Below are positions 13,923 to 38,136 of a stretch of 44,674 nucleotides of DNA, in pieces. A program made the translations under genes and the position numbers. The stretch covers positions 1 to 44,674 of the IMG/VR virus record IMGVR_UViG_3300020433_001568. The stretch is one strand, 5' to 3'. The DNA comes from a virus. Within the stretch, counting starts at the first letter, position 1, and every line of letters begins with the position of its first letter. Below the pieces are notes generated by a model, which worked only from the letters and a program-made list of their open reading frames with translations, was not told the origin of the DNA and did not search any database.

Positions 13923-14310
13923 TGACTCAGCAGGAATAATAGTTAGATTAAACAATTTAGCGCTTCTAGGAAGAAGATCTAAGTTATGTGAGACTCTTCA
14001 TGGATATTGGTCAATGCCATGCGGAATGTGCGAAGATTTTGAAGACCCCATGAGAACTGCAACTCGAGAGTTTTTTGAAGAAACCAATATAACTCTTAAG
14101 TCAGAAATTCATTTTTTAACTAAATTTCAAAATTTGAAGGGCGGAACATTTCACGTTTTTTATACAGACATAAAAGAGCTATTATATCCAGACTCTCGAG
14201 CTATGGATGCTATTGAGCATGATGAGTGGGGATTTTTTAAAATAGAAAAAAACTGCTTACCAAACCCAATCACCAAAGATACGAAAAATGCAATATTGAT
14301 GCTCAAATGA
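13912..14310 (+). CDS. Nudix hydrolase
   Basis: 132 residues with a Nudix box at about 38-60: GMCEDFEDPMRTATREFFEE then TNI, matching Gx5Ex7REUxEExGU except that the last Gly is Asn. Nudix enzymes cleave nucleoside diphosphates linked to another group. The N-terminal GIIVRLNNLALLGRRS and YWSMPCG segments resemble the GDP-mannose and nucleotide-sugar branches, which fits the downstream gmd gene, but 8-oxo-dGTP or other substrates are equally possible. It overlaps the upstream nuclease by 11 bases and the downstream gene by four (ATGA). Confidence 0.85.
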   Translation: MTVNDSAGIIVRLNNLALLGRRSKLCETLHGYWSMPCGMCEDFEDPMRTATREFFEETNITLKSEIHFLTKFQNLKGGTFHVFYTDIKELLYPDSRAMDAIEHDEWGFFKIEKNCLPNPITKDTKNAILMLK

Positions 14311-15365
14311 AAAAGATAATAATTACAGGAGTAACTGGCCAAGATGGCAGCCATATGGCAGACTATTTATTGAAAAATACTACCGACACTATAATCGGTG
14401 GCGTAAGAAGATTGAGCGTTAAAAACCATAAAAATATTCATCATTTATCAAATAATGATAGGTTTAATTTAATAGATTTAGATGTAACAGATCAACAAAA
14501 TGTATCTCATGTAATTCGAAAAGAACAGCCAGATTACTTTTTAAATTTTGCAGCAAATTCTTTTGTTGGTAATAGTTGGTCAATGCCCATCAGCCACATG
14601 GAGACAAATTCTATGGCAGTGTTATATCAACTTTCTTCGATAGCCGAATATTGTCCTAATTGTAGATATTATAATGCCGGAAGCAGCGAAGAATTTGGAG
14701 ACGTCACATACTCGCCTCAAGACGAAAGTCATCCACTAAGACCTCGCAGTCCATATGGAGCTTCTAAAGCATCAGCGAGGCATATTGTAAAAGTTTACAG
14801 AGACTCTTATGACATTTATGCTGTTCAAGGCTGGCTTTTCAACCACGAAGGCGTAAGGCGCGGAGAAGAATTTGTGACCAGAAAAATATCAAAAAACGTT
14901 GCAGAGATATGCAAAGCGTTAGAAAGTAGAAAAAAATTTACACCATTATCCCTAGGAAACCTAGAAGCAAAGAGAGACTGGTCTGATGCAGAGGATTTTA
15001 TAGAAGGAATATGGTTGATGATGAACAACCCTTTTGGGCCCAAGGATTATGTTCTTAGTTCTGGAAAAACCTATTCAATTAGAAGCTTTGTAGAGCGATG
15101 CTTTTTAGAAGCAAATATACCCTGTTACTGGACTGGATCCGGTTTAAATGAAAAGCTTTTCCTGTCTAACTATATAGCAGAAGAGCACAACTTAAAAGAC
15201 ACAGAGTTGCTCAATATTGATCCTAAATTCTATAGACCTGCGGAGGTTGAACTATTACAAGGGGATCCATCTTTGGCTGAAAAAGAATTGGGGTGGAAAC
15301 GAAAAACAGACTTTAATGGATTAGTCAAAAAAATGTATAAAAATGACTACGCATTGTTAAGTTAA
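14307..15365 (+). CDS. gmd: GDP-mannose 4,6-dehydratase
   Basis: 352 residues, full length for the family. The Rossmann start is IIITGVTGQDGSHMADYLL with the GxxGxDG NAD(P) motif. LNFAANSFVGNSW follows, then the catalytic region NAGSSEEFGDV and YGASKASARHIV (YxxxK). NHEGVRRGEEFVTRKIS and LEAKRDWSDAEDFIEG are hallmark Gmd sequences. It converts GDP-mannose to GDP-4-keto-6-deoxymannose, the precursor of GDP-fucose, GDP-rhamnose or GDP-perosamine. It is ATGA-coupled to the Nudix gene. No partner epimerase is in the window, so the phage probably feeds a host pathway, perhaps altering surface glycans. Such glycan genes are known auxiliary genes in aquatic phages. Confidence 0.9.
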   Translation: MKKIIITGVTGQDGSHMADYLLKNTTDTIIGGVRRLSVKNHKNIHHLSNNDRFNLIDLDVTDQQNVSHVIRKEQPDYFLNFAANSFVGNSWSMPISHMETNSMAVLYQLSSIAEYCPNCRYYNAGSSEEFGDVTYSPQDESHPLRPRSPYGASKASARHIVKVYRDSYDIYAVQGWLFNHEGVRRGEEFVTRKISKNVAEICKALESRKKFTPLSLGNLEAKRDWSDAEDFIEGIWLMMNNPFGPKDYVLSSGKTYSIRSFVERCFLEANIPCYWTGSGLNEKLFLSNYIAEEHNLKDTELLNIDPKFYRPAEVELLQGDPSLAEKELGWKRKTDFNGLVKKMYKNDYALLS

Positions 15366-15406: not shown

Positions 15407-16858
15407 ATGAAACATAAATATAGCTCCGCAAAACGTCCTGGACCAAAGAGCTCTGCTCAAACTCCAGCTAAAAAATCAGAACGCAAAAAAGGCTCTTCTA
15501 AAAATAAGCCAGGTAGTGCTGGCAAAAAAGGTGGCAAAATTAATTTCTCTGCTAAAGTTTTAGAGTCTTTAAAAAATAAAGTTAAGGAACACAACTCCAA
15601 GTACAGCAAGAAAGTTACTCTTTCTCAGCTTAAAAAGGTTTACCGTAGGGGAGCAGGAGCATTTTCATCTAGCCACAGACCAGGAAAATCAAGAGGGCAA
15701 TGGGCAATGGCAAGAGTAAATACATTTCTTAAAATGGTAAGAGGCGGAAAAGTAAAAGATAGCTACAGAAAAGCTGATCAAGATATTGCGAGAGCCAGCG
15801 CGAATGTTATCATTGATGATGGTGTTAGAGAAGAAAACTTTCTAACCGAAGAGGATTTTATTCAGGCCAAACTTGATATTTACAACTATCAACTTCAAGA
15901 AGATCCTGAATTCACTGAAGAAATGTGGAGCGAAATTTTTTCAGATGTCGACGAATTAGGTTTTGAAGAATATGTCGATGAAGAAAGTTGGGCAGCAGAA
16001 GCCAATAAAGGCAAAAAACTTAATAAGCCATTCAGGACCCCAGGTGGACCCAAAAAGTTTTCTGTTTACGTTAAAAATGAAAAGGGCAATGTCGTTAAAG
16101 TAAACTTTGGAGATCCCAACATGGAAATTAAGAGAGATGACCCCAATCGTCGCAAAAACTTCAGAGCTAGACATAATTGTGAAAATCCCGGTCCAAAAAC
16201 AAAAGCTCGCTATTGGAGTTGCAAAATGTGGTCAAAGAAAAGTGTTACAAAAATGACCAAGGGTGAAGAAGAAAAGGTTGAAGAATCTGATGCTAGCGCA
16301 CAAGATTATATGGAAAAAGCATTTATGCATCATTGCGCAAAGTATGACGACGATCTTGTTAATACCGCTGGTATGGATAAGGATAAAACCTATGCAGCTT
16401 GTGCATTGCAATACAAAAAGATGAAAAGCTCATTGTATGAAAAAGGCGAAGCCGGTTTAACCGAAAAACAAAAGAAACTGCCAAAACCCCTACAAGAAGC
16501 TATTCTCAAAAAACAGGGCGAAGAAATGAAAGAGTCCGAGTCAGGCCATCACGAAAAAGATAAAGACAAAAAGAAAAAGAAAAAATCTTATTCTAGTCTT
16601 TGGGAAAATATTCGCAAAAAGAAAAAACGAATGGGCAAGAATTATAAACCCGCAAAACCTGGAGATAAAGATCGCCCTCAAAAAAAAGCCTGGGATAGAG
16701 CTAAATCAGCAGAGCACGAAGAAAAGAAAAATTTTAAACCCCATATGATGTATGATCCAAAAACAGGAAAGGGCTATGAAGCAAAAACTTTTGAAGATCA
16801 TTTAAAAATGAAAAAAATGGGCTACACCCACGAAAAGCCAGAAAAAAAGAAAGAGTAA
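15407..16858 (+). CDS. Lys-rich DUF5824-like phage protein
   Basis: 483 residues, very basic at both ends. Residues ~50-105 hold KKVTLSQLKKVYRRGAGAFS, a stretch I associate with DUF5824, followed by PGKSRGQWAMARVNTFLKM. The middle (160-205) is acidic. FRARHNCENPGPKTKARYWS with a following CKMW is a motif common in phage structural proteins. LTEKQKKLPKPLQEAILKK and a Lys/Glu tail close the protein. The late-type promoter and the fibre gene after it suggest a virion protein, perhaps internal and DNA-contacting given its charge. No enzymatic motif is seen. The domain naming is from memory. Confidence 0.68.
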   Translation: MKHKYSSAKRPGPKSSAQTPAKKSERKKGSSKNKPGSAGKKGGKINFSAKVLESLKNKVKEHNSKYSKKVTLSQLKKVYRRGAGAFSSSHRPGKSRGQWAMARVNTFLKMVRGGKVKDSYRKADQDIARASANVIIDDGVREENFLTEEDFIQAKLDIYNYQLQEDPEFTEEMWSEIFSDVDELGFEEYVDEESWAAEANKGKKLNKPFRTPGGPKKFSVYVKNEKGNVVKVNFGDPNMEIKRDDPNRRKNFRARHNCENPGPKTKARYWSCKMWSKKSVTKMTKGEEEKVEESDASAQDYMEKAFMHHCAKYDDDLVNTAGMDKDKTYAACALQYKKMKSSLYEKGEAGLTEKQKKLPKPLQEAILKKQGEEMKESESGHHEKDKDKKKKKKSYSSLWENIRKKKKRMGKNYKPAKPGDKDRPQKKAWDRAKSAEHEEKKNFKPHMMYDPKTGKGYEAKTFEDHLKMKKMGYTHEKPEKKKE

Positions 16859-16861
16859 ATT

Positions 16862-17806
16862 ATGGGCAGAACTGTTTTAATAAACAAGCTCAAGCTCACC
16901 ACAAGTAATGTAGAAGAAAACAATATTGTCCTGCAAGAGATTAGTGGTCAGTTGTATGTAAATAATCATCTAGTTCTTACATCCAACAATATTGGCGACA
17001 GTTCCAATATTACCAGCATAGAATCAGACATTACTACCCTACAAAGTGACGTTTCAACTCTACAAGGCTCATCATCGTCATCAGAAGAATCTTCATTTTC
17101 TAATAGTTATTCTGTTATTTTAGATAAAACTAATGATTACATTGGAGTTGCATCAGGTTTAAACCCTGGTCTCGATGCCTATTCGCTTTCCTTATGGTTT
17201 AAACCTTCCTCCACAATTACCAGTTCTTATGTCGGCACCCTAGTAGGTGGTCTCACAAATGTATATGGAGGAATAAGGATCGGTATGGGGTCGGGCAGAG
17301 TAATAGAATATAACGACGGAGTTACATATATTGCTGCAGGTGATGTTACATCGGTTGACACAAACTGGCATCACATCGCACTCGTTTACGTGGACAGCGG
17401 ATACACCACAACAAACGGCACTGCTAGTGCAAACGGAAAAGGGTACAAAATTTTTCTAGATGGAAATAGAGTAGATACGACCCTGGGATCTACTACTCGA
17501 AACTTTGCATTAGGTCAGACAACCAATAAATTCAAAATTGGTAGAGAAGGAGAAAGAACAATTTATTATTTTGGTGGCGGAGTTGATGAATTAGCAATTT
17601 TTGGAAGCTCTTTATCTGATTCAGATGTGAACGATATTTATTATTCTGGCGTACCAACGGACTTAACCTCCTATAGTCCAACTCTTTGGTGGAGAATGGG
17701 AGATAATGACTCTGGAGCAGGCACAACAATTACAGATCAAGGTAGTGGAAGCAATGATGGAGAGTTGGTAAATGGCCCGACCTTCTCCAGCTCAACACCT
17801 TCTTAA
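16862..17806 (+). CDS. LamG-domain tail/fibre protein
   Basis: 314 residues. Residues 1-50 are beta-rich (INKLKLTTSNVEENNIVLQE) and 50-75 form short coiled-coil repeats (SIESDITTLQSDVSTLQG) followed by a Ser/Glu linker. Residues ~80-290 form one LamG/Con A jelly-roll: YSLSLWFKPSS, NWHHIALVYVDSG, GYKIFLDGNRVD, FGGGVDELAIFGSSLSDSDV. This is a carbohydrate-binding-type fold seen in phage fibres. It starts three bases after the upstream stop. It is on the opposite strand from the twin-LamG protein at 1328-2908, and the two may be parts of one adsorption apparatus. Confidence 0.75.
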   Translation: MGRTVLINKLKLTTSNVEENNIVLQEISGQLYVNNHLVLTSNNIGDSSNITSIESDITTLQSDVSTLQGSSSSSEESSFSNSYSVILDKTNDYIGVASGLNPGLDAYSLSLWFKPSSTITSSYVGTLVGGLTNVYGGIRIGMGSGRVIEYNDGVTYIAAGDVTSVDTNWHHIALVYVDSGYTTTNGTASANGKGYKIFLDGNRVDTTLGSTTRNFALGQTTNKFKIGREGERTIYYFGGGVDELAIFGSSLSDSDVNDIYYSGVPTDLTSYSPTLWWRMGDNDSGAGTTITDQGSGSNDGELVNGPTFSSSTPS

Positions 17807-19076: not shown

Positions 19077-19097
19077 TCATAATATTGCTTCTGCCAC

Positions 19098-19123
19098 AAA
19101 AACCGCTTAAATGCGGTTTTTTT
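19098..19123 (+). terminator. Rho-independent terminator after HSP20
   Basis: AAAACCGC and GCGGTTTT pair around a TTAAAT loop, with a run of T continuing to 19123. A-rich and T-rich flanks make it potentially two-way. It isolates the downstream cargo cassette from HSP20 transcription. Confidence 0.88.
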
Positions 19124-19136
19124 GTGTAATTTTTGA

Positions 19137-19165
19137 TTGACAAGATATTAATATTAGTATATACT
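19137..19165 (+). promoter_or_regulatory. Sigma70 promoter of DUF1549/DUF1501 cassette
   Basis: TTGACA (19137-19142), 17-bp spacer, TATACT (19160-19165). Start predicted near 19172, giving a 16-base leader with no Shine-Dalgarno (AT-rich) before ATG 19188. A near-consensus promoter directly after a terminator is the layout of an independently expressed cargo gene. Confidence 0.8.
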
Positions 19166-19187
19166 ACATAAGCTGTTTATTATTTTT

Positions 19188-21236
19188 ATGAAAAAATTTA
19201 TATTTATACTATTTGTTTTATTGGTAACATCACCACTAACCCTAGCAAGCAAGCTTTATTTTAATAACGGCAAATCATTAGACGCAGAAATTATAGAAGC
19301 TAACGCAACTCATGTCTTACTAAAAAGATCTTCTGATTTGCAACGATTTAGAATTAAATCAGATCTTTTAACTAAAGATACTCAAAAGCAAATAGAGCTT
19401 TATCACTCGGAAGGTCGATACAGCTCCATACCCACGCTTAAAACGCCTCTTGATTCCAAAACTCTAAATCAGTACTCTGGATATATTGATGCTCTTATAG
19501 ATCAAAATTTACGTTCTAAGCGCCTTCAAAAAACAAAAGAGCTAGACGAATATTCTTATGTCAGAAGACTTTATTTAACCACAATAGGAAGAATACCCAC
19601 TTATCAAGAAGTTATTGATTTTGCAGACGACAATGACAAAGACAGAAAAGATAAATTAATTCAAAAACTTTTAAACTCAAATGGCTATGTCAATCATCAA
19701 TTGAATTGGTGGAGTGACATGTTAAGAATCAAAGATAGAGTCAATGGAACAAATATTAACGTAGGAGTTATTTACAGACAGTGGCTAAGACAGGCAATTA
19801 GCGAAAATAAAACTTATGATGAAATTGTTAGAGAGCTATTAGGTAGCACAGGAAAGCTATATGACGGAGGCGAAGCAATAAGCTACTATCTACGAGATAG
19901 AGGGATGCAGGCAGACAACCTTTCTCATACAGTTAGAATTTTCTTGGGCACTCAATTAGAATGTGCCATGTGCCATGATCATCCGTTTGATCGCTGGACA
20001 CAAAAAGAATTTTACGAAATGACAGCATTTACCTCTGGCATTGGAAATGTCAGATTACGTGAAGAAGGTAGAGTTATAGGAGAATTAAGCCGAAGCATCA
20101 ATGATGATGCAGATCCCAGATCTGGAACTTTTAATAATTGGAGAAATCAAATCAGAGACTCAATACAGTTTGGCATTGAAAATAACGGAACTGGCGCCAT
20201 AAAACTACCAGCAGATTTTGCAGAAGATAATGGCAATCCAGGAGAAGAGGTGCTGGCTAAAGCTATTTTTACCCCCAAGCCAATACAAAACGTGCAAGGT
20301 AATAGCCGAAAAGTTTTTGCAAGCTGGATGACCAGCAAAGACAATCCTAGATTTACAACCATGATTGCCAACAGGATTTGGAAGCATATTTTTGGCGCGG
20401 GACTTATTGAGCCTATTGATTCAATGATGGATGACACACTAGCTAGCAATGAAAAACTAATGAAATACTTAGAACGATTAATGGTGAGCGTTAATTATGA
20501 TCTTAAAGAATATCAAAGAATTCTATTGAATACAAAATTATTTCAAAGAGAGAGCAAAAAAGAAGACTATAAAAGTTTAGAAGAGTATAACTTTGAAGGA
20601 CCTATCTTAAGAAGAATGACCGGAGAGCAGCTTTGGGACTCTCTGGTTACATTAGTTTACAACGACATAGATGACAAATCTAGAATTCAAGTTCAAAATC
20701 AACAAGATTATTCAGTTATATATGAAAGATATAAAGACATGACTGGTTCGGAAATTTATCAAGACATCAAAACACTGGCAGATGAAAACCCAAACAATAG
20801 AAACTTTGTTGCAATAGTTCAAAAAGCCGCGGGCTATGAATATGAAAATTCTAGAATTAAAGATAGGCATTTAGTAAGAAGCAGCTACCTTTCTTACCCA
20901 GCCCCAGGAGGACACCTAATAAGACAATTCGGAGGTAGCGACAAAGAACAGATAGACAACAGCAATTCAGAGCCAAATACAACACAAGTGCTCAATCTTT
21001 TAAACGGATTTGTAGAGACAAATATATTAAATAAAAAAGATGCAGACTTTATAGAATTAATGCAATCAGAAAAAACAAAAACAAAACAAGTAGAAAATGC
21101 ATTTTTATCAATTTTATCCAGAAAACCTAAAACCAGTGAATCAACTTTACTCAAAAAATTTATTGATGAACAAGATGGATTTAAACATGTATCTTGGATA
21201 CTATTAAATAGTCATGAATTTATTTTCATCAAGTAA
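19188..21236 (+). CDS. Exported DUF1549-DUF1553 protein (PVC-type)
   Basis: 682 residues. The signal peptide is at 1-20 (MKKFIFILFVLLVTSPLTLA). Residues ~22-62 look like an SHD1/SLA1-type domain (LYFNNGKSLDAEIIEANATH). DUF1549 spans about 90-285 (YVRRLYLTTIGRIPTYQEVI, NWWSDMLR, QLECAMCHDHPFDRWTQKEF); CAMCH at 259-263 is a CxxCH, the pattern of c-type haem attachment conserved in this family. DUF1553 spans about 375-670 (NPRFTTMIANRIWKHIFGAG, GPILRRMTGEQLWDSL). Function is unknown; these proteins are expanded in Planctomycetes, Verrucomicrobia and Lentisphaerae and usually sit beside a DUF1501 gene, as here. I know of no phage precedent. Base composition matches the surrounding phage genes. 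Confidence 0.88.
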   Translation: MKKFIFILFVLLVTSPLTLASKLYFNNGKSLDAEIIEANATHVLLKRSSDLQRFRIKSDLLTKDTQKQIELYHSEGRYSSIPTLKTPLDSKTLNQYSGYIDALIDQNLRSKRLQKTKELDEYSYVRRLYLTTIGRIPTYQEVIDFADDNDKDRKDKLIQKLLNSNGYVNHQLNWWSDMLRIKDRVNGTNINVGVIYRQWLRQAISENKTYDEIVRELLGSTGKLYDGGEAISYYLRDRGMQADNLSHTVRIFLGTQLECAMCHDHPFDRWTQKEFYEMTAFTSGIGNVRLREEGRVIGELSRSINDDADPRSGTFNNWRNQIRDSIQFGIENNGTGAIKLPADFAEDNGNPGEEVLAKAIFTPKPIQNVQGNSRKVFASWMTSKDNPRFTTMIANRIWKHIFGAGLIEPIDSMMDDTLASNEKLMKYLERLMVSVNYDLKEYQRILLNTKLFQRESKKEDYKSLEEYNFEGPILRRMTGEQLWDSLVTLVYNDIDDKSRIQVQNQQDYSVIYERYKDMTGSEIYQDIKTLADENPNNRNFVAIVQKAAGYEYENSRIKDRHLVRSSYLSYPAPGGHLIRQFGGSDKEQIDNSNSEPNTTQVLNLLNGFVETNILNKKDADFIELMQSEKTKTKQVENAFLSILSRKPKTSESTLLKKFIDEQDGFKHVSWILLNSHEFIFIK

Positions 21237-21256
21237 AGTGTAAACAAATAATTATT

Positions 21257-22522
21257 ATGAATGACGAACTAACCAGAAGACAATTTGCGCAAAATATTGC
21301 CAAAGCATATCTTGGAGTTAATGCTCTAATATATGGACAAGATTTAATCGCCCGTACACAACGTGTTCCTACTGCCAGGCACGTTATATTTTTAAACATG
21401 TCAGGCGGAATGACTCACATAGATACGTTTGATCCGAAGCCAGAAAATAAAGAAGTTATGGGAGAAACTACAGCCATAAATACTTCCGCAGATGGCATTC
21501 AACTTGGTAGCTGGCTACCCCGCACAGCGCAGCAAATGCATCTGGCATCATTAGTTCGATCAGTAAACAGCAACCAAGGGGCGCACGAACAAGCTAACTA
21601 CCTTCTACATACAAGCTATCAAAAGCGTGGAACAATTATTCATCCAAGCATGGGAAGTTGGATTAGTAAGTTATGCGGAAAATTAAACAACAGCCTTCCA
21701 GACAATGTTAAAATTAACGGTGGAAGCGGAATTATTGGAGCTGGATATTTTGAAAGCAAGCACGGTCCACTACCTCTTGGGAATCCAGATGCAGGCATAC
21801 AAAATGTAAAAAAATCAGGATACGTAGGAGAAGATATGTATAAAGATAGATTGGATGCGTCCAGCATTTTAAACGAAGGCTTTACCAGACAATTTCCTCA
21901 AAAACAAGTTAGAGCTTATTCTGACTTGTACGATGATGCCATCAAACTTATGAAGAGTAAAGATCTCGAAGCCTTTGATCTTACTCACGAGCCAGAAGCT
22001 CTTCGAGAAGAGTATGGACAAAACAATTTTGGTCAGGGTTGTCTTTTGGCCCGCAGACTCATAGAAAACAAGGTGCGCTTTGTAGAAGTTTCGTATGGAG
22101 GATGGGATATGCACAATGATGTTTTTGGAAGCTTAGAAACAAGAGCAAAAGTTTTAGATGATGGATTATCTTCTTTATTGGCAGACCTTAATCGTAGAGG
22201 CATGCTATCTGATACTATGGTTGTTGTCGCGAGTGAATTTGGAAGAACTCCAGAAATTAAAGCTGGACGAGTTGGAAGAGATCATCATCCATCGGCATTT
22301 AGCGTATTTTTTGCCGGAGGAGGAATTAAGCAGGGTTATGTTCATGGCAAGTCTGATGAGCGAGCACATTACGTTGAAGAAAACGGCGTTGACGTTCCAT
22401 CAATTAATGCAACCATTGCTTATGCTATGGGCTTGAGTATTGAAAAAATTACATACTCTCCTAGCGGAAGACCTTTCAAGGTTTCTAATGGCGAACCGCC
22501 AATTCTAGATATCTTGGCATAA
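21257..22522 (+). CDS. DUF1501 (sulfatase-like fold) exported protein
   Basis: 421 residues. The N-terminus LTRRQFAQNIAKAYLGVNAL looks like a weak Tat signal (RRxF plus moderately hydrophobic stretch). DUF1501 spans most of the rest: HVIFLNMSGGMTHIDTFDPK, QGAHEQANYLLHTSYQKRGT, FVEVSYGGWDMHNDVF, VVVASEFGRTPEI, GRDHHPSAFSVFFAGGGIKQ. The fold belongs to the alkaline phosphatase/sulfatase superfamily, but many members lack the catalytic formylglycine residue and none is visible here. The gene follows the DUF1549/1553 gene by 20 bases, the standard pair in PVC bacteria. A GTG-TAAACA stands upstream with a longer spacing. It ends at a strong two-way terminator. Confidence 0.88.
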   Translation: MNDELTRRQFAQNIAKAYLGVNALIYGQDLIARTQRVPTARHVIFLNMSGGMTHIDTFDPKPENKEVMGETTAINTSADGIQLGSWLPRTAQQMHLASLVRSVNSNQGAHEQANYLLHTSYQKRGTIIHPSMGSWISKLCGKLNNSLPDNVKINGGSGIIGAGYFESKHGPLPLGNPDAGIQNVKKSGYVGEDMYKDRLDASSILNEGFTRQFPQKQVRAYSDLYDDAIKLMKSKDLEAFDLTHEPEALREEYGQNNFGQGCLLARRLIENKVRFVEVSYGGWDMHNDVFGSLETRAKVLDDGLSSLLADLNRRGMLSDTMVVVASEFGRTPEIKAGRVGRDHHPSAFSVFFAGGGIKQGYVHGKSDERAHYVEENGVDVPSINATIAYAMGLSIEKITYSPSGRPFKVSNGEPPILDILA

Positions 22523-22525
22523 AAA

Positions 22526-22547
22526 AAACAGCCCCTTAGGGCTGTTT
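22526..22547. terminator. Bidirectional terminator between DUF1501 and nrdB
   Basis: AAACAGCCC (22526-22534) pairs perfectly with GGGCTGTTT (22539-22547) around CTTA. An A8 tract on the left serves as the T-run for the minus strand; the plus-strand T-run is short (TTTCGTT). It closes the cassette and also terminates the minus-strand RNR genes. Confidence 0.85.
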
Positions 22548-34718: not shown

Positions 34719-35852
34719 TTAAACGATAAGACCAAGCAACACGCGATCATCGATGATCATACGGCCTTCTTCAAGAGAACCGTAGTAACCAATCTTGGAT
34801 TGACGTGTTACGAATTGATCGTCGGCTACGAGAGAGAACTCGTCTCCGGACTCGGAATCAGTAGCTACTGCACGAATCATGGACTCGCGACTGAGGTCAA
34901 CACCAACGATGATTTGCTCAGCAACAGCATTTCCGGAAGCATCTAGTCCGAACTGTCTAGCCGATCCACCTGTTACGTAGTGTTCATCATAGGTTGTATT
35001 GCCTGCAGCTACATCAAATGTAGTGTTCCATTTTTGACCATCGCCCATTTCATTGTACTCTTGGATCGATACGCCATAGAACTCAGGAATGCCAGCGCTA
35101 TTAAAGATAGCGTCACGCATACCGTCTGTTCCAGCGATGGAATCAGAACCAACAGTGTTGATTGGGTTGTAAGCCAAACCGCGGATTTCTTCTACGATTT
35201 CAGGAGAAACCAGAATATCGGTGATTCCACGTCCACGACGCTCAGCAGGTGTTCCACCGGTCCAAGCAGTATTAATACGCTTAGCTTTTGTGAACAACTT
35301 GTTAAGGTCGGAAAGAAGGAATCGATCAGCTTGAGCAGAACGAATAACGTGTTTTTCGCCATTTGTTTCAGCATTAGCCAATGCGGTCATAATCATGGAA
35401 GCAGAAGTTTTTTCTTGCTTAAGCAAAACTTCTTGAGCCATGCGGGTAAATGTCTTGCTGACTACATCAAGTCTGGAACGAGAAGCGTAACGCTTATCGA
35501 AGCTCAAAGCGCTGTCGAGAGTATAAGTTGTGAACTTAAGCTCGCTTTGCGAAGGAGCGACTTGGTTGGTGGGAAGTCCGCCAGGAACTGACTGACTCCA
35601 AACCTGGATGTAATCTTCATCAGTAATGTCGTGATAAAGGTCCAAAGGAATGCTTGGGCTTTCATCAGAATTGAACTGCAGCGATGTAAACATGTTACTT
35701 ACTGTAGGAGCTGCGTTAACAACTTCAGCCAAAACTGGGCCAATAAATTCAGCCAGAGCAGTTTGAGCTTCGTAAGCAACATCTCTGTTCTTGGAAGCCA
35801 TAGCTTTTACAAGCTCGACTTGCTCGGGTGTTCTATCTAGAGTGATTTTCAT
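34719..35852 (-). CDS. Major capsid protein
   Basis: 377 residues, usual for an HK97-fold capsid subunit. An N-terminal helix (ITLDRTPEQVELVKAMASKN) is followed by a beta-rich core (SPSIPLDLYHDITDEDYIQV, LKFTTYTLDSALSFDKRYAS), a long helix (DVVSKTFTRMAQEVLLKQEK) and later ITDILVSPEIVEEIRGLAYN, matching the spine and P-domain pattern of phage capsids. Position supports it: decoration and protease-scaffold genes upstream, own terminator downstream. Unlike most genes here it has a real Shine-Dalgarno (AAAGGA about ten bases before ATG), consistent with very high expression. GC is visibly higher than in its neighbours. Confidence 0.86.
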   Translation of the reverse strand: MKITLDRTPEQVELVKAMASKNRDVAYEAQTALAEFIGPVLAEVVNAAPTVSNMFTSLQFNSDESPSIPLDLYHDITDEDYIQVWSQSVPGGLPTNQVAPSQSELKFTTYTLDSALSFDKRYASRSRLDVVSKTFTRMAQEVLLKQEKTSASMIMTALANAETNGEKHVIRSAQADRFLLSDLNKLFTKAKRINTAWTGGTPAERRGRGITDILVSPEIVEEIRGLAYNPINTVGSDSIAGTDGMRDAIFNSAGIPEFYGVSIQEYNEMGDGQKWNTTFDVAAGNTTYDEHYVTGGSARQFGLDASGNAVAEQIIVGVDLSRESMIRAVATDSESGDEFSLVADDQFVTRQSKIGYYGSLEEGRMIIDDRVLLGLIV

Positions 35853-35870
35853 TATTTTTAAATCCTTTCT

Positions 35871-36500
35871 TTAGAAGCTAACTTTGCAGAGGTATTTCTT
35901 TGCTGAAGAGTTGTCGCTTTCTTCTCCGATAGCGATAACTTTTCCTACAACAGCGCCAGCACTTTGAGTAACAAGTTGTCCAGCATTAGAAGAATCAACT
36001 TCAAGATCGGCTCCCAAAGCTGGTGCAGCCGAAAAAGCTGATCCGCTCAAAAGAACCATTCCCTTTGTCAAAACAGGAACTGTTTGTCCAGGAAGAACTC
36101 CTTGTGCTTCATCAAGTTTTTGCTTGTAGGTTAACATTTTCTCACCGTTTTCGTCGAACGCCAAGGTTTCACGAAGTGTGATTCCCAACGTTGCTCCGGT
36201 GCCATCAGCGGGTGCAACCGTCATACCGTTAGAGGGGTATGCGTTAAATCCGATGTGTGCACCACTAAAGCTTGCACCAAGGTAGTCCCTAAGGGCTCCC
36301 GAAGTAGCAAGTGTTGAAGGTGTGTCACCGGGGAGTGCGCCCGCACTTACTTTGACCACTACGCCAGCATCATGATCGCCAGGATTTGCGGATGTCATTG
36401 CGGCCAGAGCGGCAGCATTAGCACTCGAAAGATCCAAAGCAAACAAGTTGACAACGTCGTGTTCACTGTAGTCTCGGTATGGTAGTATTCTTTTTGCCAT
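35871..36500 (-). CDS. Head decoration/minor capsid protein
   Basis: 209 residues, Ala/Gly/Ser-rich and beta-strand-rich, starting MAKRILPYRDYSEHDVVNLF. ALPGDTPSTLATSGALRDYL, TVAPADGTGATLGITLRETL and GQTVPVLTKGMVLLSGSAF are followed by KVIAIGEESDNSSAKKYLCK at the end. Position between protease-scaffold and capsid, the composition, and the codon bias shared with the capsid gene point to an abundant head surface protein. The gap from the upstream stop is 19 bases with a weak AGAAG ribosome site. Assignment is mainly positional. Confidence 0.68.
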   Translation of the reverse strand: MAKRILPYRDYSEHDVVNLFALDLSSANAAALAAMTSANPGDHDAGVVVKVSAGALPGDTPSTLATSGALRDYLGASFSGAHIGFNAYPSNGMTVAPADGTGATLGITLRETLAFDENGEKMLTYKQKLDEAQGVLPGQTVPVLTKGMVLLSGSAFSAAPALGADLEVDSSNAGQLVTQSAGAVVGKVIAIGEESDNSSAKKYLCKVSF

Positions 36501-36519
36501 AATTTTTTTCTTCTATATA

Positions 36520-38136
36520 TTAGTATGAAATTTTAACAGAATCCTTGAAAGTCTTTTGTAGACGATCTCTTAAAGATTCTCCGTCAGATGAAGACTCATT
36601 ATTGTTAACAACAGCAGCTTCTTCAACTTCCAAACTTTCAAGAGCTTCTTCTACTGCGTCAGCTTCTTCAGTTTCTTCAGCAGATGCTTCAGCAACTTCG
36701 ATTTCTTCTTCTGTTTCTGTTTCGGTTTCTTTTTGAGCTTCTGATGCCTCAGAGATGCGTTTTTCAACTTCTTGAGCTACACGATCTTCGAAAGCCTTCT
36801 TCTCAGTTGCGATAAATTCTTTGTTCTTGTGCTTCCAGACTTTAGCGAGCTTTTCTTGATATTCTGCGAAACTTTCTTCGGTTTCATCAAGATCGCTAAT
36901 TTCAGATGCTACAATTTTGGAATCATCTTCGTCAAGTTCGTAGATTTCATTTAAAGCTTCCATGCGTGAGTTGAATCGAATTTCTGCTTCTCTAGCAGCA
37001 TTCTCTTCTTCTAAAGCGGAAAGCTTTTCTTGCGTTGATTGCAGTTGCTGTTCTACTTCTCCCATTTTCTCTTGCAGAGAATTTTGAGCCTGAACAGCTT
37101 CTTCTTTTTCAGCTTTAGCCTTTTCCAGATCGGCGACATATTGTTCGCCTTTCTCTCGGATAGCCTCGATAAAAACTTTAGAGATGCTTGCGACACTCTC
37201 TTCAGAAAAATCTTGGTTGCCAAGCTTTTCGTCTAAAGCTGCTCGGAATTCATTGATGATTTGATCTTTGTCCATAATTTTGTTATTACAGGTTTCTTTG
37301 TTTAGTACATTTTCTTCAGTAGAATGGGAAGTTTTTTCGCTTTTTGTCATTAACTTGTCGATAGGATCTCTTCTCGCAGAAGGTTCTGGTTTAGATTCTC
37401 CTTTCTCTGCAACCAAGCCTTTGACGTCTGCAGCAGGGTTCGAAGTGAAACCAATTCCTAGAGGATAAATATCTCCTACTATCAATCGATTCACTTTTCG
37501 TCCGTCTTGCAACATTCCTTTTCCACCTAAAGATTTTAAATAAGGAGAATAAGCTTTCATCTCCTCTGGGCTAGAGACTATAGTTGACTCGTGCAAGTCG
37601 TCTCCCCCAACTGAAATTACATAATCATTAAATCCAACCTCCCAGCTCGCCGAGACACTTTCGTAAAAATCGCTTTCTTTATCGGTTGAATTAACAACAA
37701 GATCAGCGAATTCTTTACTGGCAGTTCTGTAGACTACAGCTGCCAATGCAATATTATAAGCCTTATCTTCTACCAGCGCTTCTTCTTCTGTCATCAATTC
37801 TGAAGAATCAGAGTATTTAGAAAAGCCAGCAGAAACAATGTGTCCAACTATTCTGTCTCTATCATGTTCAATATTGGCTGGCTTGTGAACAAAATAATCC
37901 TTAATCTTAACCGCCGCCTCGCTATCAATACCATCACCATTTTTATTAAACTTGTTCACCACAGCAGCGTTAAACGCAACTCCAATTAAATCAATATTTT
38001 TGTCTAAATCAATACTAGCAGGAATCAAAGGGCGCAAAGATTCCAAGGAAGCCTTGCTGATATTTGAATCCTCAATATCACTAGAAGCAAAAACTATATT
38101 TTCGAACGTTGTTGTATATTTATATTCTTGAGACAT
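36520..38136 (-). CDS. Prohead protease fused to scaffold
   Basis: 538 residues. The N-terminal ~250 form an HK97/S78-type protease: NIDLIGVAFNAAVVNKFNKN, PANIEHDRDRIVGHIVSAGF (His91) and ESVSASWEVGF (Ser160 or Ser162) supply the His/Ser pair. From ~285 onward the protein is a Glu/Lys-rich coiled coil with acidic runs, as in scaffolding domains. It directs shell assembly and then cleaves the scaffold and perhaps the capsid N-terminus. An internal ATG at 37275 (residue 288, MDKDQIINEF) begins exactly at the scaffold part and could give a separate nested scaffold. A GTG-TACCTT motif precedes the main start. Confidence 0.82.
   Translation of the reverse strand: MSQEYKYTTTFENIVFASSDIEDSNISKASLESLRPLIPASIDLDKNIDLIGVAFNAAVVNKFNKNGDGIDSEAAVKIKDYFVHKPANIEHDRDRIVGHIVSAGFSKYSDSSELMTEEEALVEDKAYNIALAAVVYRTASKEFADLVVNSTDKESDFYESVSASWEVGFNDYVISVGGDDLHESTIVSSPEEMKAYSPYLKSLGGKGMLQDGRKVNRLIVGDIYPLGIGFTSNPAADVKGLVAEKGESKPEPSARRDPIDKLMTKSEKTSHSTEENVLNKETCNNKIMDKDQIINEFRAALDEKLGNQDFSEESVASISKVFIEAIREKGEQYVADLEKAKAEKEEAVQAQNSLQEKMGEVEQQLQSTQEKLSALEEENAAREAEIRFNSRMEALNEIYELDEDDSKIVASEISDLDETEESFAEYQEKLAKVWKHKNKEFIATEKKAFEDRVAQEVEKRISEASEAQKETETETEEEIEVAEASAEETEEADAVEEALESLEVEEAAVVNNNESSSDGESLRDRLQKTFKDSVKISY

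Follow-up and report, generated by a model that had tools for sequence, protein, structure and literature searches.

A host-derived DUF1549-DUF1501 gene pair carried under selection as phage cargo

Phages carry a host-derived pair of genes as cargo and keep it under selection. We describe the pair in a 44,674-base virus record, IMG/VR IMGVR_UViG_3300020433_001568 (this whole stretch is called the window), where a cassette at 19098-22547 holds two uninterrupted plus-strand genes spaced by 20 bp. The upstream gene encodes a DUF1549/DUF1553 (PSCyt2-PSD1) protein and the downstream gene a DUF1501 protein. An earlier reading of the letters without database searches (the sequence-only reading) had described two adjacent full-length genes, and Pfam agrees: the open reading frames (ORFs) are intact and all scores lie far above the cut-offs. 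PSCyt2 matched at 4e-40 (138.4 bits against a curated cut-off of 29.8) and PSD1 at 4e-33 (115.4 against 28.5), in the expected domain order, while DUF1501 matched at 2e-107 (360.4 bits against 27) and covered profile positions 1-389 of 390.

Phylogeny traces the pair to bacteria of the Planctomycetes-Verrucomicrobia-Chlamydiae (PVC) group. The nearest cellular DUF1501 proteins come from metagenome-assembled genomes of marine Opitutia (Verrucomicrobiota), at 55-60% identity, followed by Verrucomicrobiaceae and Planctomycetota at 43-50%. A DUF1549/1553 gene lies directly upstream of DUF1501 in all nearest cellular relatives whose contig reaches that far, and the five host-type genomes tested hold 46-95 DUF1501 genes each. 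In a 54-row IQ-TREE phylogeny, support was 100/100 both for the window's clade, with 15 rows, and for a second viral clade of 7 rows, which is sister to Opitutia L030-L033; a single clade for all phages was rejected (approximately unbiased test, p-AU 0.0006). A 117-row tree, built by quick search, split the viral sequences into clades A, B and C and forced at least three cell/virus switches in the subfamily. With remote members and second copies added, at least seven switches were needed across DUF1501, counts that leave direction unfixed and rest on sparsely sampled cell paralogues. The cell-to-phage direction is supported by clade B, which is nested within Opitutia and has in common with it a CPIK..CCxxC insert. 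This metal-type insert is found in host copies and in many phage copies of clade B; it is absent from the window's clade and from inspected clade C copies. Opitutia DUF1553 proteins have one or two Cys-rich CPxx..CCxxC inserts (L028:4200-4700, residues about 560-680).

The pair is under strong purifying selection in phages. Among the four closest clade A pairs, the ratio of nonsynonymous to synonymous substitution rates was 0.042-0.055 for DUF1549 and 0.014-0.055 for DUF1501. The proposal of a PVC-derived cargo in a phage thus holds, with phage flanks and marine Opitutia as nearest cellular relatives, and the trees contain several virus-only clades among PVC sequences where a phage-specific clade had been sought. 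The cassette's own phylogeny suggests that the host is probably an Opitutia-like member of Verrucomicrobiota.

Carriers are numerous in IMG/VR. Its alignment scans gave 78 DUF1501 and 66 DUF1549 loci, and pooling both scans gave about 85 distinct DUF1501 and about 76 distinct DUF1549 versions. The gap between the genes is at most 60 bp in 87 of the 115 loci with both, some contigs being counted there as two loci; both genes are also present in 14 records retrieved by the single proteins. The window's PolIII alpha lineage is represented by 47 contigs of 40 kb or longer; DUF1501 occurs in 22 of them and DUF1549 in 16, never without DUF1501. These counts are lower bounds because the contigs are fragments. 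Seven records of the second viral clade (B) have DUF1501 only, which does not describe the whole clade, since other clade B records have DUF1549. Several phages were expected to share the cassette, and the many IMG/VR carriers include both the window's PolIII alpha lineage and T4-like phages. Elsewhere, INPHARED (by tblastn) and PHROGs gave no match for either protein, NCBIfam gave nothing beyond one sub-threshold N-terminal domain match, and we found no report of phage-borne copies of either family in the open literature; PMC5418858 contains merely a weak Conserved Domain Database match in a 61-amino-acid phage protein. The claim that phage-borne copies are undescribed therefore stands for INPHARED, PHROGs and the open literature, but IMG/VR holds many unreported copies.

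The window's cassette lies in phage DNA. Genes in the window include those for terminase, DnaB helicase, primase-like and RecA-like proteins, PolIII alpha, ribonucleotide reductase (RNR), Clp ATPase and HSP20, and GC content shows no step at the cassette edges. Locus L005, part of a 184-kb IMG/VR viral contig from a different sample, has the window's gene order (HNH, HSP20, DUF1549, DUF1501, RNR, PHP, exonuclease, PolIII alpha, Clp), with 89% identity for the DUF1549/DUF1553 protein and 97% for DUF1501. The sequence-only reading had asked about a chimera with a breakpoint near 19080 or 22550. We looked for one and found phage flanks on both sides; the window is not chimeric, because the independent contig has identical HSP20, pair and RNR junctions. 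For the window, an assembly artefact or host DNA misclassified in IMG/VR is thus largely refuted and almost certainly does not account for the pair. A few remote records (L131, L133) have no phrog_2 terminase match and IMG/VR records can be fragments, but 21 of 30 carrier records have a terminase-type match (18 of them strong), T4 structural genes adjoin the pair in L113, and the trees contain virus-only clades.

The DUF1501 protein is predicted to have an alkaline-phosphatase/sulfatase superfamily fold. Its model (predicted local distance difference test, pLDDT, 83) gave 191 Foldseek matches in the PDB at E <= 0.001, the best from 5e-7 with probability 1.00; the best 50 of the 191 are sulfatases, sulfamidase, alkaline phosphatases and LTA synthases. 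A sequence search of solved structures returned weak sulfatase matches only, at E 0.02 and up. H54, D56, H110, D284, H286, D342 and H343 are present in 80 of 80 sequences (window plus viral), with E or D at position 327, and this conserved Asp/His set could hold metals. The N-terminus, MNDELTRRQFAQN, is twin-arginine translocation (Tat)-like with a weak hydrophobic stretch, and its RR is kept in 78 of 79 viral copies.

The DUF1549/DUF1553 protein combines a strongly hydrophobic leader, MKKFIFILFVLLVTSPLTLA, with a conserved CXXCH motif. Both leaders, predicted by motif, agree with the Sec-type and Tat-like signal peptides proposed from the letters. The CAMCH motif noticed earlier is present, and its cysteines are the only two in the window protein, as in the L005 protein. 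CXXCH is kept in 69 of 69 viral homologues. The His two residues past it is replaced by Asp in 16 of 70, so the conserved element is CXXCH itself rather than a wider CCHH site. Haem-type is at best a putative label for the motif: that assignment came from CXXCH, and no cytochrome c appears among the PDB fold matches listed for the model (pLDDT 84). Foldseek found no PDB relative for the main domains, and the solved-structure sequence search found nothing meaningful. The small N-terminal barrel matched 2hbp (probability 1.00, template modelling (TM) score by target 0.58, E 0.23). Helices resembling phycobilisome linkers were hinted at only weakly (E about 0.8), and this was set aside.

The pair was captured repeatedly and sits in different surroundings. 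Many members of the PolIII alpha lineage have a clade A or B cassette in one common neighbourhood, with HSP20 and RNR as neighbours. In the clade C phage L113 (224,703 bp), genes for T4-like gp15, gp20, S77 protease and gp23 lie immediately 3' of the pair, and L114 and L121 have the same T4-like clusters next to it. In marine clade C phages the pair falls within a lysis and envelope island; in L101, L178 and L180 DUF1549 starts 1-8 bp after the end of a Phage_lysozyme2 gene with the same orientation. In L015 a clade A cassette occurs in a record whose terminase scores as clade C terminases do, so cassettes may pass from one phage lineage to another. The sequence-only reading had proposed a self-contained, moron-style cassette. 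It is phage cargo, but capture by at least two unrelated phage lineages means that it is not a single moron, and some copies lie inside lysis or structural gene clusters.

Other genes recur around the pair. L113 has a second DUF1501 of another subfamily upstream of it, and second copies stand by the pair at L113:3825-5081, L114:3149-4405, L121:4543-5802, L135:4323-5588 and L180:10876-12297; those placed in the tree (L113, L114, L135, L180) group with other PVC DUF1501 groups. A few kb upstream of the window's pair are genes for GDP-mannose 4,6-dehydratase and a ConA/laminin-G-like lectin (14307-15365 and 16862-17806), the former also present close to the cassette in many relatives. Genes near the cassette at L019:13936-14589, L101:11298-12005 and L187:10929-11429 encode small exported proteins that resemble, by inspection, outer-membrane beta-barrels.

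We tentatively favour a role for the pair as exported proteins that act late in infection to alter the host's surface or wall. The phage-maintained, host-derived genes would supply two exported partners in the envelope of an Opitutia-like Verrucomicrobiota host: a Tat-exported DUF1501 protein of alkaline-phosphatase/sulfatase fold, possibly a metalloenzyme through its Asp/His set, and a Sec-exported, helical CXXCH partner, DUF1549/DUF1553. A phage copy of this envelope complex, made during infection, would remodel cell-surface or wall polymers, most likely aiding virion release or blocking re-adsorption and superinfection. The envelope is favoured because of the lysozyme and endolysin linkage in some phages and the sugar-nucleotide and lectin-like genes near the window's pair. 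The sequence-only reading had named surface remodelling, superinfection exclusion or host metabolism; all three stay in view, with lysozyme linkage in some phages tilting towards the envelope. A fuller version, in which PVC phages repeatedly built an envelope-remodelling or release system from host DUF1549-DUF1501 complexes, with a metal-dependent enzyme, a CXXCH partner and sometimes a lysozyme operon, seems rather doubtful. Several points weigh against an envelope-remodelling role. We know of no activity for either family, and the alkaline-phosphatase nucleophile was not located in DUF1501, so the protein may not be catalytic. The lysis linkage (an Amidase_2 endolysin gene at 11 and a lysozyme-family gene at 10 of 24 inspected clade C loci) comes from loci that are not independent of one another and was seen in some clade C phages only; the window's lineage has HSP20 and RNR beside the pair. 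Nutrient or metal handling would be an equally good fit to the Opitutia neighbours (TonB receptor, PSCyt1 protein, SufS).

Those neighbours lend themselves to another explanation, possible though on balance unlikely: an auxiliary metabolic pair sustaining a host nutrient, metal or electron-transfer function in infection, such as use of organic phosphate or sulfate esters or periplasmic redox chemistry through CXXCH. The Opitutia locus has a TonB-dependent receptor gene on one side and PSCyt1/SufS genes on the other, the CPIK..CCxxC insert is of metal type in host and many clade B copies, further metabolic genes, RNR above all, are present in the window, and DUF1501 shares the fold class of alkaline phosphatase. 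Yet the Cys-rich insert is missing from the window's clade and clade C, the pair is accompanied by neither a transporter nor a pathway partner, and its linkage to a lysozyme operon in some phages is at odds with such a role. The large host repertoire of 46-95 DUF1501 genes per genome would instead suit a decoy or competitor, a phage copy that titrates or replaces a host subunit such as the receptor of competing phages. This reading also fits repeated capture, which drew on more than a single group of paralogues, and records that have DUF1501 but not DUF1549; it is nonetheless improbable, as a pure decoy has no need of putative active-site residues kept in 80 of 80 sequences. Still less probable is a virion component or late structural accessory: the pair directly precedes the T4-like gp15, gp20, S77 protease and gp23 genes in L113, L114 and L121, but Sec/Tat-type leaders are kept in nearly all copies and in other lineages the pair lies among early-type or lysis genes.

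Envelope remodelling by an exported pair can be set beside several known systems. PVC PSCyt2/PSD1 and DUF1501 modules of planctomycetes and Verrucomicrobia (DUF1501 clusters described by Kamneva et al. 2012, cited in PMC4452313; PMC5615132) share Pfam families, gene order, export leaders and CXXCH with the window's pair; they are cellular, with tens of copies per genome, whereas the window's pair is phage-borne and single in its record. The nearest Opitutia modules also have the Cys-rich insert, lacking in the window copy, and TonB receptor/PSCyt1/SufS neighbours. In proteobacteria, DUF1800-DUF1501 pairs beside chitin synthase genes (PMC5122149) likewise place a DUF1501 with a twin-arginine leader in a conserved two-gene unit, with DUF1800 as partner in place of DUF1549/1553. 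A relationship between those partners was rejected (hhalign probability 1.3). Sulfatases, LTA synthase and alkaline phosphatase resemble DUF1501 in fold and conserved Asp/His set but differ in the details, with a TM-score of about 0.4-0.45, identity of about 10% and no nucleophile located. Phages are known to carry auxiliary or moron genes for host surface change, such as the sugar-nucleotide genes of T4-like cyanophages. These too are host-derived accessories under selection, and a GDP-mannose dehydratase gene is also in the window; the window's products differ in being predicted exported envelope proteins, of families unreported from phages in the libraries searched.

Phage copies offer a new handle on enigmatic families. 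Planctomycetes and Verrucomicrobia hold greatly expanded sets of PSCyt2/PSD1 and DUF1501 proteins, for which no function is known. Genes that do not pay are seldom retained by phages, and several acquisitions of the pair point to a real but unproven job at the infected cell's surface, suggesting that DUF1549-DUF1501 complexes matter there during infection. With one or two copies per phage instead of fifty, that function becomes directly testable. The pair may also serve as a candidate marker of phages that infect marine Verrucomicrobiota.

The window's cassette may have its own promoter and terminators, to judge by a consensus-like site and strong hairpins (Table 1). The near-consensus promoter claimed directly upstream exists as a TTGACA-17-TATACT site, joint-best among 22 promoter-like sites in the region, but it is merely suggestive because shuffled sequences contain nearly as many (20.1). 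Terminators had been claimed on both outer sides. Hairpins that fold far better than shuffles occur at both, the upstream one at -15.3 kcal/mol (19090-19130), but the latter is not among the matches of the consensus terminator scan, which lists only the downstream site, on the minus strand (22548-22525). The downstream hairpin may therefore serve both converging units, cassette and RNR. This layout is not general, other carrier phages having different contexts.

Table 1. Features of the cassette and its flanks in the window
Feature	Position	Strand	Details and basis
HSP20 gene, phage flank	18663..19076	+	Pfam HSP20 1e-16; same neighbour in L005
Terminator-like hairpin with T-run, 3' of HSP20 gene	19099..19123	+	fold z -5.3
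Promoter-like site, sigma-70-type	19137..19165	+	TTGACA-17-TATACT; 11/12 matches
DUF1549/DUF1553 (PSCyt2-PSD1) gene	19188..21236	+	682 amino acids; ORF and Pfam
Sec-type signal peptide (predicted)	19188..19247	+	residues 1-20, by inspection; hydrophobicity 3.7
Small beta-barrel like SLA1 homology domain 1	19248..19397	+	residues about 21-70; Foldseek
PSCyt2 / DUF1549 domain	19485..20036	+	residues 100-283; Pfam
CAMCH motif	19962..19976	+	residues 259-263; sequence
PSD1 / DUF1553 domain	20307..21161	+	residues 374-658; Pfam; without Cys-rich insert of Opitutia homologues
DUF1501 gene	21257..22522	+	421 amino acids; predicted alkaline-phosphatase-superfamily fold (ORF, Pfam, model)
Twin-arginine motif TRRQF	21272..21286	+	residues 6-10
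Terminator-like hairpin, 3' of DUF1501	22526..22547	.	fold z -4.3
Ribonucleotide reductase small and large subunits, phage flank	22578..26104	-	Pfam; same neighbour in L005 and others

Insertions interrupt the spacing of the pair in some carriers. A DUF5824-type ORF splits it in L001, L002, L013, L014, L017 and L018, and in L015 the genes are separated by 7.5 kb of other DNA; both genes stay open in every case. Fragments of DUF5824-type ORFs occur at many places (L001:12143-12454, L002:3555-3992, L014:9471-9875, L017:8859-9395, window 15407-16858), and these ORFs, often between the cassette genes, are reminiscent of a mobile or homing element. The 184-kb contig that is the closest relative (IMGVR_UViG_3300020391_000003, G005:132869-134248) has a terminase match with one in-frame TAG, which may reflect an error, an intron or a frame problem. 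Next to the window's own terminase gene, GC content at 35000-37000 is about 0.43, against about 0.35 elsewhere.

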